Of a stretch of 52,028 bases of DNA, positions 6,712 to 52,025 are shown piece by piece. The notes under the pieces were generated by a model. That model had not been told where the DNA came from. It was given only the letters and a program-made list of their open reading frames with translations, and made no database searches. Position 1 is the stretch's first letter, and each line of letters opens with the position of its first letter. Position numbers and translations under genes: made by a program. Source of the DNA: Acidobacteriota bacterium (lineage in GTDB: Bacteria > Acidobacteriota > Terriglobia > UBA7540); contig JARLGN010000497.1 of assembly GCA_031292775.1 (NCBI GenBank), positions 1 to 52,028 on the forward strand, given 5' to 3'.

Positions 6712-7866
6712 TCAGCCTTGCGCACTCCGGAAATTGATTCGGCCCTTTTCGATGGGCACGCCGCGAACCTCAATTTGGCTCAAGTCGCGCGTTCCAAGCC
6801 CCAATTGTTCCGCGAGTTTCAGGGTGCTGGCGCAGGTTTCAAAAGGCGCCGTGCCGTGATCGGCCATGGGATCAAAACCCATCAGCGCCGAACCCACAGC
6901 GTCTGTATTCACACAGTTCGTGCCCGCTATCAGCATGCCGGCATGCACAGGCCGCAGTGTATTCAGCCAAGGGCCTTCGCCGCCCGCCACGGTTTCAATG
7001 CCGTCGATCACCGCAAGATGGATGGGGCGCGCCGCCACAAGGTCGGCAGTGACACGCGGGACGCGATAGCCCGGGTCGCGCGGCGAAGTGGGATCGTTCT
7101 CCGAGGGCGCGCTACGGGAGGGCTGCCGGTCGCCCGCATGCAGCATTCCGCGGGCCCCCGACGGCACTTTGCTGGGCTCATCGATGCCGGCGTTCTCACC
7201 GTAGATCGTTGTGGGTGGAAGCCCAAAGCAGTTCTTCATCGAGAGCGTCACGCCCGCCGTCGCATGTTCTTTAAGTTTGGCCAGGGAAACAAAAACATCG
7301 CACTCTTCGTAAGCGGGATTTACGTCGTAGCCCTTGAACATCAACCCGCCGCCCGGCACGTGCAGGCGTGTGTACTTCTGTCCCGCGCCCGGATAGTTCG
7401 TGTTCACCAACTCCACGCTGGGAGCGGCGCTGGTCAAGGCGCTGGTATTCCAACCGGCTTGGGAGAGAAATTCCGCCAGCGACGATGGCTCCGAAGAGCT
7501 TTCCAGCAAGCGAATACGCCACGCTCCCGCGTTGCCCAGCAAGTGGACGAGCGCTCCCACCACATGGGGATGCACCCAATACGTCTGGGCTTGTGGCAAA
7601 CCCTTAAAACGACCCTGTGAGCTTCCGGTAAAGTTGAGCTTTATGGAAACCGTCTTGCCGTTCACGATTCGCTGCAATCCGCCCAACTGGTCAAACATTA
7701 CGGCAAGCGTGCTCGTTACTTCCGGCCCATACGTGGCACACCTGGCAATGGCCACCGGAGCGGCGGGTGCAGCTTTGGCCCATAGCCCCGACGGCGCAAG
7801 GCAGAACCCCGCAGCCGCAGCGCTTACCCCATGGATAAACTCTCGCCGATTAAGGTTTCGTTTCAT
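6712..7866 (-). CDS. DUF362 domain-containing protein with Tat signal
   Basis: 384 aa; NRREFIHGVSAAAAGFCLAPSG twin-arginine leader; VSLAKLKEHATAGVTLSMKNCFGLPP typical of DUF362. Confidence 0.8.
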   Translation of the reverse strand: MKRNLNRREFIHGVSAAAAGFCLAPSGLWAKAAPAAPVAIARCATYGPEVTSTLAVMFDQLGGLQRIVNGKTVSIKLNFTGSSQGRFKGLPQAQTYWVHPHVVGALVHLLGNAGAWRIRLLESSSEPSSLAEFLSQAGWNTSALTSAAPSVELVNTNYPGAGQKYTRLHVPGGGLMFKGYDVNPAYEECDVFVSLAKLKEHATAGVTLSMKNCFGLPPTTIYGENAGIDEPSKVPSGARGMLHAGDRQPSRSAPSENDPTSPRDPGYRVPRVTADLVAARPIHLAVIDGIETVAGGEGPWLNTLRPVHAGMLIAGTNCVNTDAVGSALMGFDPMADHGTAPFETCASTLKLAEQLGLGTRDLSQIEVRGVPIEKGRINFRSAQG

Positions 7867-38365: not shown

Positions 38366-40072
38366 CTACGGCCTCATTCTTGCCGCCTTAAACGATGCGC
38401 CCAGGAGCATGATGGCCGCCACCACGGTGCACAACCAGGCGAAAGCATCTCCATGGGCCGTGTAAAACGTCTGCCGCGTCTCGAAGTTAAAGTACGCGGG
38501 CATGGCCAATTGCTGGTAGCGCGGGATTTCCTTCAGCACCCGGCCATAAGGATCTATGAGGGTTGTCAGCCCGTTATTGGTTGCCCGCAGCAGGTAGCGG
38601 TGATTCTCAATGGCGCGCAGCCGGGCCATTTCCAAATGTTGATAGGCGGCGGCGGATTCACCGTACCAGGCATCATTCGAAATATTCACCAGCACGCCCG
38701 CGCCGCCTGCCACAAGCTTCCGCGCGAGTTGGGGAATGATCGCCTCGTAGCAGATGAATACTCCAATGCCACCGCCGGGAGACTGGGCCACGGAGTAGCT
38801 GGAACCGGGGACGAAGTTCCCCACCTCGTCAGTGATCTTGTGCACCAACCCCGGTAGCGCCCAACCCGGCACATACTCGCCGAAAGGCACCAGATGAATT
38901 TTATCATACCGGGACACTTCGCGGCCGTCGGGATCCAGTGTGAAGGCACTGTTGGTGATACTTTCCCCCTTCGCATCAACGGGAATTATCGTATTCCCGA
39001 TGACGAAGGCATGTGCCTGGCGCGCCATATCTTCCATGGCGTTGTGAAAAATCGGATCGCGAGTGAAGAAGAAGGGCGCGGGGTTCTCCGCCCAGATCAG
39101 CAAGGGAGGATTTAAGGAATTGTCGATTGTCGATTGCCGATTGCCGATTGAGGGAACGGCCTCGGAATTTTGGATTTTGGATTTTGGATTTTGGATTGGC
39201 GGAGTTCCGGTTGCCAACTCTTGAATTTTGAATCTTGAATCTTGAATCGCCAGCTCGGCGACGCTGAATTGAACGAGTTCCCGAAGCTTTGTGGCATCGC
39301 GCCAGGGCGTCCAAGCATCCAGCTCCGGCCCATCTAATGGCACGTTGGGCTGGACGAGAATTGCCAGTTCCTTCCCCGCCGCAGCAGGGGGCGGAGCCAG
39401 CCTCCATTGGGCAATGAGTAACAACCCAAGCCAGCCCGCCAGCACCAGTCCGGCCCGCGCACGCCGGGGAGAGATCCATACCCATGCCAGCAGGGCGCTG
39501 GTGGCCACGGCGAGGAATGAAAGGCCGTATACGCCAGTCACCGAAGCAATCTGCCGCACGCCGGGAGCCTGCACGGCATAACCCAGAAGGTTCCAGGGGA
39601 ATCCCGTGACCAGGTACGTGCGGGCCAATTCCATCGGCATCCAAAGAAACGGGGTCAGCGCCAACGCCCATCCCGGGGAGCGGCGCGCGGCCCATCCCAT
39701 CGCGAGGCCGAACCCACCAAAGAAGATTGAGTCAATGATGACGAAGAGAATCAGGACCACCACGGCCAATACCGGCGCCAGGTGCCCGTAGAATTCCATG
39801 ACGGTCACGAACCAATAACAGCTTCCCGCGAAGAAGAAAGCCCCACACACATAACCCAATAGAAACGCATGTTTCAGCCGCTTCTCAACCGCCAGGGCGG
39901 CGAGCACGGGGAAGCACGCCACCCACACCAGGCCGCGCCAATGGAGCTTGGGAAAGCACGCCACGAGCATGAGCCCGCTCAGCGCGGCGGCGATTAATCG
40001 TGTGGAGGTTTTCGCAAGTAAATTGCGCATTGATCCTTTGGGAGGCCGGTGCGATTCGCGAGACGGCATCAA
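38366..40072 (-). CDS. lnt: Apolipoprotein N-acyltransferase carrying a heptamer-repeat insertion
   Basis: 568 aa; N-terminal TMs, LGYAVQAPGVRQIASVTGVYGLSFLAV, PLLIWAENPAPFFF, YDKIHLVPFGEYVP, GVFICYEAIIPQLAR. Confidence 0.92.
   Translation of the reverse strand: MMPSRESHRPPKGSMRNLLAKTSTRLIAAALSGLMLVACFPKLHWRGLVWVACFPVLAALAVEKRLKHAFLLGYVCGAFFFAGSCYWFVTVMEFYGHLAPVLAVVVLILFVIIDSIFFGGFGLAMGWAARRSPGWALALTPFLWMPMELARTYLVTGFPWNLLGYAVQAPGVRQIASVTGVYGLSFLAVATSALLAWVWISPRRARAGLVLAGWLGLLLIAQWRLAPPPAAAGKELAILVQPNVPLDGPELDAWTPWRDATKLRELVQFSVAELAIQDSRFKIQELATGTPPIQNPKSKIQNSEAVPSIGNRQSTIDNSLNPPLLIWAENPAPFFFTRDPIFHNAMEDMARQAHAFVIGNTIIPVDAKGESITNSAFTLDPDGREVSRYDKIHLVPFGEYVPGWALPGLVHKITDEVGNFVPGSSYSVAQSPGGGIGVFICYEAIIPQLARKLVAGGAGVLVNISNDAWYGESAAAYQHLEMARLRAIENHRYLLRATNNGLTTLIDPYGRVLKEIPRYQQLAMPAYFNFETRQTFYTAHGDAFAWLCTVVAAIMLLGASFKAARMRP
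39121..39248. repeat. Cluster of three heptamer arrays inside lnt
   Basis: TGTCGATx2|TGCCGATx2 (39121-39148); GGAATTT|TGGATTTx3|TGGATTG (39164-39198); TTGAATT|TTGAATCx3 (39221-39248). Confidence 0.9.
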
Positions 40073-40144
40073 GCGGTTATCGATTCCTGTAACAAAAGTG
40101 GACCTTTCAATCTACTCCCGGAACAGGTTGATTCGAGTTCACAC

Positions 40145-40402
40145 CCCTCGCCCCCCTGGGGGAGAGGGGGGACCGCAAGCCGGAGGGGGCCCCACGTTCT
40201 GCTTGTTGTGGGGGTGAGGGGGTTGGCACCAAGATAGGAATCGTGCGCCTGAGCCGTGGAAGCAAGTGAAAAGGCAAAGGTGAAATCTCTAAGCTTTGGC
40301 AATGTCTTGGTAGCCCCCGGAGTTCTTGACCCCCTCACCCGTCCCGCCCCGGCTGGTGAAGGCGCCGGTTGCGGGCCACCCTCTCCCCCAAGGGGGCGAG
40401 GG
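40145..40402. repeat. 258-bp composite REP-like element (copy A): two unlike arms in inverted orientation
   Basis: Left arm CCCTCGCCCCCCTGGGGGAGAGGGGGGACCGCAAGCC...GTGAGGGGGTT; right arm GACCCCCTCACCCGTCCCGCCCCGGCTG...CTCTCCCCCAAGGGGGCGAGGG. Confidence 0.85.
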
Positions 40403-41130: not shown

Positions 41131-41165
41131 TTCAATCCAAAATCCAAAATCTAAAATCCAAAATC
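41131..41165. repeat. Heptamer array immediately after the SPOR-gene stop
   Basis: TTCAATC|CAAAATC|CAAAATC|TAAAATC|CAAAATC. Confidence 0.9.
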
Positions 41166-51530: not shown

Positions 51531-51766
51531 CCGCCGGCAATCCAGTGTTCCCGCTGAGGGGTGATTACGGGCGGCTGAGGACCATACATTCGAATCCGTC
51601 ATTGTTGAAGATACAGCCACAGATTGTCAAGGAAGGCGCGGGCGGCTCGGCCGTGGAATGGGCATCTTCACCCCACTGCTGTCCAAATTAGCAGACGCGC
51701 CAAGTGGACCACGCGGGCCCGCGGTCAGCCATCATGAATTCGACATCGAAACCAAGAATACATTTC

Positions 51767-52025
51767 CCCTCGCCCCCTTGGGGGAGAGGGGGGACCGCCA
51801 GGCGGAGGGGGCCCCACGTTCTGCTTGTCGTGGGGGTGAGGGGGTCTTTGCCAAAATGGAATTCGTTTGGGAGACCCGCAAAAGCCAGGCAAAAGGCAAA
51901 AATAAAATGCCCTCAGAGTCGACAGGATCTCAGAAGGCCCATGAGTTTTTGACCCCCTCACCCGTCCTGCCCCGGCTGATGAAAACGCCGGTTGCAGTCC
52001 ACCCTCTCCCCCAAGGGGGCGAGGG
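51767..52025. repeat. 259-bp composite REP-like element (copy C)
   Basis: Arms nearly identical to copy A (40145-40402); central ~100 nt divergent. Confidence 0.88.

Follow-up and report, generated by a model that had tools for sequence, protein, structure and literature searches.

The heptamer SSRs of Xanthomonas and Nostoc (GGGAATC, GGGGAYT) are over-represented in these genomes, depleted from coding sequence and found as inverted pairs (PMC4692102). In Coxiella burnetii, an IVS of the 23S rRNA carries an S23p/IVP gene; this unit of about 430 nt has terminal inverted repeats and has been called selfish, and tandem heptamers (GACAGAT) lie just upstream of the S23p ORF (PMC4990558). The Coxiella IVS and the Xanthomonas GGGAATC repeats are partial precedents for the arrays described here. 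No mention of S23 was found in the paper on the Xanthomonas and Nostoc SSRs (PMC4692102), and our search of the open-access literature found no paper joining heptamer arrays with IVP genes or reporting in-frame protein inserts derived from them. Repeats in which the unit length is fixed while the sequence changes, heptamer-derived satellites being noted among them, resemble those studied here as well (PMC6749651, PMC8161180); the available portions of these two papers contained no link to IVP genes or to in-frame inserts.

The arrays considered here lie in the gene for apolipoprotein N-acyltransferase (lnt) of a soil bacterium of the Acidobacteriota whose genome (G000) is a draft MAG of 5.48 Mb in 657 contigs, 86% complete. 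The nearest named relatives are MAGs of Terriglobia/Acidobacteriota, and an initial assignment of the host to the Verrucomicrobia was dropped on this account. The window, that is, the whole stretch of DNA analysed, is its contig C189 (52,028 bp). The relevant features are the following:

38366 to 40072, minus strand: lnt, apolipoprotein N-acyltransferase, 568 aa (ORF; TIGR00546, PF20154, PF00795; Foldseek)
39086 to 39088, minus strand: codon of the catalytic Glu329 (IWAEN), invariant in the alignment
39113 to 39250, minus strand: repeat-derived insert, about aa 275-320, between helix 261-287 and the strand running up to the catalytic Glu (30-orthologue alignment; structure)
39119 to 39150, minus strand: array (CGGCAAT/CGACAAT)n on the coding strand, encoding IGNRQSTIDN, aa 308-318
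39167 to 39197, minus strand: array (CCAAAAT)n on the coding strand, 4.4 perfect copies, encoding IQNPKSKIQN, aa 292-302
39221 to 39248, minus strand: array (GATTCAA)n on the coding strand, encoding IQDSRFKIQ, aa 275-284
41134 to 41165, no strand assigned: further array (AATCCAA)n, close to a gene boundary and outside lnt (TRF)

The first-pass annotation had placed three different heptamer arrays in the lnt frame, and TRF and translation agree with it: exactly three period-7 arrays occur in the interval, with 96% (39119-39150), 100% (39167-39197) and 91% (39221-39248) matches, separated by spacers of 16 and 23 bp. They encode peptide repeats of the FKIQDSR- (aa 275-284), PKSKIQN- (aa 292-302) and RQSAIGN/RQSTIDN-type (aa 308-318). 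The frame had been described as open on both sides of the arrays, and indeed the ORF at 38366-40072 runs without a stop along all of its 568 aa. The inserted segment directly precedes the WAE motif with the catalytic Glu329, as expected from its proposed position before the W-x-E region, whereas its proposed extent of about 45-50 repeat-encoded residues has to be narrowed, since only about 32 of some 46 residues derive from repeats and the rest are short spacers. At the score of these arrays, 451 kb contained 37 arrays of period 7 and two first-order Markov shuffles contained none; other periods, multiples 14 and 21 excepted, gave 0-6 arrays each. The absence of arrays from the shuffles together with the excess of period 7 excludes an origin by chance.

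The product is a typical Lnt outside the insert. It matches TIGR00546 with 273 bits (cut-off 133), both the LNT_N membrane domain (PF20154) and the CN_hydrolase domain (PF00795) are detected, and in a Foldseek search with its model every top-ranking match is a solved Lnt structure (TM, normalized by query length, about 0.7). Fold, domains and the catalytic Glu-Lys-Cys are as in PDB entries 5VRG, 5N6H and 5N6M. Residues E329, K391, E399 and C441 are unchanged in the alignment (E329, K391 and C441 in 26 of 26 sequences), and lnt of G000 and its closest relative, G001, differs by 179 synonymous versus 109 amino-acid-changing codons. With an unchanged catalytic Glu-Lys-Cys set and a prevalence of synonymous changes, the gene looks functional. 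Lnt is assumed to be essential in this organism, as it is in other Gram-negatives.

Alignment with related Lnt proteins, which the first-pass annotation had proposed, reveals a much shorter loop at this place in the relatives. Among 30 aligned Lnt proteins, the segment from W-x-PW to WxE typically comprises 26-27 aa across the family and 33-38 aa in the majority of relatives from the same genus, but 49 aa in G001 and 65 aa in G000. The loop before the WxE strand thus exceeds that of most relatives by about 27-39 aa, an addition of some 30 to 40 residues for which the three arrays largely account. Automatic segment lengths above 65, and of 56-95 in other family members, were discarded, an earlier PW having been matched. 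A homologous non-repeat segment of the same length would have spoken against an insertion; three other genera (G023, G024, G045) have non-repeat segments of 42-45 aa by hand count from the alignment, and these indicate that the site is naturally length-variable. The Lnt of G001 is 79% identical and carries CCAGTCCAAAATCCAAAATCTAAAGTCCAAAATCC where G000 has the array at 39167-39197; this middle array of G001 is shorter and decayed and encodes VQNPKSKVQN, whereas the arrays at 39119-39150 and 39221-39248 were seen in G000 alone. Since the middle array is common to both, it is older than their split and the segment has changed stepwise. An assembly or binning artefact might be suspected in a draft MAG of this completeness and number of contigs; it is nevertheless extremely unlikely, because the arrays are 28-32 bp long, which is below read length, lie in frame in the interior of a 52-kb contig, and the middle one recurs at the same site in an independent MAG (G001).

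How a reading frame survives such arrays follows in part from arithmetic. As 7 is not divisible by 3, an array encodes one cyclic peptide of seven residues in all three frames of a strand, and hence whether it is open depends on its orientation only. On a given strand, 69% of all heptamers are stop-free. The GATTCAA array (39221-39248) can be read through on the coding strand of lnt, whereas the opposite strand would hold a stop, and the net difference between lnt of G000 and of G001 is 48 bp, a multiple of three. The same arithmetic could be read as a contingency switch, in which gain or loss of one heptamer shifts the frame and turns lnt on or off, and heptamer tracts are known in phase variation, for example in the HMW adhesins of Haemophilus. 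We consider such a switch very improbable here, given three separate arrays in the middle of a gene for a core enzyme, an intact frame in both array-carrying species and a depletion of arrays from ORFs.

In the AlphaFold model (mean pLDDT 83.7, pTM 0.87), helix 261-287 is followed by a low-confidence loop (aa 288-322), which runs on to strand 324-327, adjacent to the WAE motif. Such a model had been proposed as a check on whether the segment forms an exposed loop; two of the arrays fall in the disordered low-confidence loop, while the first-translated one (aa 275-284) extends helix 261-287. That a conserved enzyme has tolerated an in-frame insertion derived from repeats, as first proposed, is well supported by the alignment, the catalytic residues and the model. 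The added segment might have acquired a role by co-option, such as contacting the lipoprotein substrate, since it lies one loop away from the catalytic Glu and its first-translated array is predicted to continue a helix. Low model confidence, the low complexity of the repeat-derived sequence and its poor conservation even with respect to the closest relative make co-option highly improbable. Most likely, the peptide so formed is tolerated as a passenger and does not itself serve a function.

The arrays in lnt belong to a genome-wide population, which was characterized in 1.01 Mb of contigs, 0.44 Mb of which were chosen without regard to arrays. Period 7 dominates the short arrays of the genome, and their density is about 65 per Mb overall and about 68 per Mb (30 arrays) in the unbiased 0.44 Mb. 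In this unbiased part, only 5 of 30 arrays lie well inside an ORF, compared with 68% of random windows. Being tandem 7-bp units found genome-wide and mostly outside genes, the arrays qualify as heptameric SSRs/STRRs; short imperfect arrays of about four units, distributed over the genome and poor in coding regions, are likewise characteristic of the Xanthomonas/Nostoc SSRs (PMC4692102) and of cyanobacterial STRR. Convergent inverted pairs (70 cases) occur in Xcc (PMC4692102), and inverted pairs are also common here: among array pairs at most 200 bp apart, in a sample partly chosen for holding arrays, 28 are inverted, 3 are direct and 24 consist of different heptamers, where 5% inverted would be expected at random. 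Many inverted pairs enclose only a short spacer and no gene. Whereas one heptamer characterizes the Xanthomonas/Nostoc SSRs, dozens occur here (69 consensus types in 1.01 Mb). The exact pattern CCAAAATCCAAAATCC occurs at only 4 sites, so that no single heptamer represents the population, and the use of one as a stand-in was rejected. The window also contains, at 40144-40200 and 51766-51822, a 44-57-bp repeat of the CCCTCGCCCCC..GGGGGAGAGGGGG type. About 40 more copies of it lie elsewhere in the genome, and it is probably a REP-like palindrome that has no connection with the heptamers.

Two further features set these arrays apart from the Xanthomonas/Nostoc SSRs, namely in-frame arrays in conserved genes and matched arms around IVP genes. 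Regarding the former, the insert in lnt is not isolated but one of several such in-frame insertions. Others sit at or between domain boundaries in FTCD (between PF02971 and PF04961), in a RimO/MiaB-like UPF0004/Radical_SAM protein, in a Mur ligase and in a phage terminase, where the two domains flank the array; one in a Mu-like protease belongs to the same set, whose members tend to lie beside domains or in the stretches that separate them. The state of the NSKLETG repeat in the FTCD linker differs among several congeners; NSKLET-type repeats occur in G000, G001, G003, G005, G007 and G008, and none in G002. A prophage-like region with terminase and Mu-like protease (L187, G000:C186, 2581-9962) has many heptamer arrays within ORFs, and two of them form an inverted pair in the linker of the terminase.

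Regarding the latter, 67 loci with an IVP/four-helix-bundle gene (PF05635/TIGR02436) were collected from Acidobacteriota, Geobacter and relatives, candidate division FCPU426 and others; for this protein family, XCC0516 (PDB 2GSC) is the relative with a solved structure. Arms were counted as matched when they were reverse complements within one mismatch, and the background was obtained by swapping flanks between loci. Matched inverted heptamer arms are present at 33 of the 67 loci, as against 1.7% expected with swapped flanks and 0 of 26 control genes (lnt/FTCD/RimO); about half of the IVP genes have no clearly matched arms. Matched inverted heptamer arrays thus flank IVP genes in several groups of bacteria, and the heptamers vary from unit to unit but agree within a unit. 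The notion of RNA pairing, with G-U pairs selected on one strand, was dropped, as arm duplexes on the IVP sense strand did not exceed those on the antisense strand in stability (15 versus 18 of 35, p 0.87). These units share with the Coxiella IVS the protein family, by name. However, the Coxiella IVS resides in 23S rRNA, while the units described here occupy other chromosomal sites and have the heptamer arrays themselves as inverted repeats.

The presence of whole units differs between species. At one site (L117, G000:C403, 1396-1896, and loci L385-L387), an IVP unit of about 0.5 kb with AGGTATC-type arms is present, arms and gene, in G000 and cleanly absent from the sister species G006, where the flanks abut exactly (query 1-696 and 1198-1901 at 7848|7847) and the junction consists of the overlapping stop and start of the two flanking genes. 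At the same junction, G001 and G002 have a different IVP unit with other heptamers, which suggests site preference or replacement. At a second site (L122, G000:C573, 1430-1924), G000 has a full IVP unit with CGATTGT-type arms. In G001 (L373) the gene is missing and the arms consist of another heptamer (GATTTGT/GATTGGT), yet they still match as a pair; arms and gene are both absent from G002 to G006. The states of both sites indicate that arms come or go with the unit, and paired arms appear to change in concert. Downstream of another IVP gene, a larger patch of repeated GGAATC-type heptamers (L153, G000:C259, 10372-10751) looks like an expanded or duplicated arm.

The first-pass annotation was silent on the source of the arrays. 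On balance, and with modest confidence, we regard the lnt segment as three heptamer arrays that are solo or decayed ends of small IVP-type mobile units in a loop of Lnt. The link of the lnt arrays to the population of IVP units is inferred. The array at 39119-39150 is built of the very heptamer that forms the arms of the L122 unit, and it is the only one of the three whose heptamer exactly matches an IVP arm of this genome; the other two (39167-39197, 39221-39248) have one mismatch to arm heptamers of units in other genomes and belong to the commonest heptamer families of this genome, which frequently make up gene-less inverted pairs. The lnt cluster contains no IVP gene (PF05635/TIGR02436), which the Coxiella IVS does carry, and no matched inverted arms, its arrays pairing no better than random arrays in a duplex test; it is therefore not a complete IVP unit. 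Folding of the lnt region gives z values of -1.15 and -1.27, which are unremarkable. The fold includes a plus-strand hairpin formed by two of the lnt arrays, but this was discounted because it is not significant and random pairs of arrays do equally well. Neither a donor copy nor a target duplication was found for the lnt arrays.

The main rival to the solo-derivative reading is local replication slippage, in which a polymerase with a preference for 7 bp made the arrays in place, without any mobile unit, and the Lnt loop tolerated them. The lack of a matched inverted partner in lnt and the presence of one of the arrays, in shorter form, at this position in G001 fit slippage, which could also yield gene-less inverted pairs and solo arrays. 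It accounts poorly, however, for three different heptamers within 130 bp, for the strong inverted pairing of arrays throughout the genome, for arms that match within but not between IVP units and for the clean gain or loss of a whole unit. Moreover, a gain of 7 bp breaks the frame, and stepwise growth in a conserved gene would need steps of 21 bp or compensation. We consider slippage possible but rather doubtful.

If the lnt arrays are ends of IVP-type units, as we favour, arrays would reach new sites as parts or derivatives of such units, which would often lose the gene and one arm. Selection would remove most landings in genes, and the survivors would be those that are stop-free on the coding strand, leave the overall length a multiple of three and are situated in loops or linkers. 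Of the lnt arrays, one predates the split of G000 and G001, and the other two would have been gained later in G000 or lost in G001. More tentatively, and a little short of probable, the heptamer arrays of many bacteria may be the ends of widespread tiny mobile units composed of an IVP gene and unit-specific matched inverted arms, with arm-only derivatives seeding in-frame segments in lnt, FTCD and RimO.

With regard to the source of bacterial heptamer repeats, which have been known for a long time but lacked a convincing origin, the matched arms of IVP genes and the clean empty site provide a concrete handle, and they raise the question of whether the IVP unit itself makes or copies its arms. 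As lnt illustrates, repeats of this kind can lengthen a core enzyme by tens of residues, and their task is eased in that every frame of a strand yields one and the same peptide from a heptamer array.
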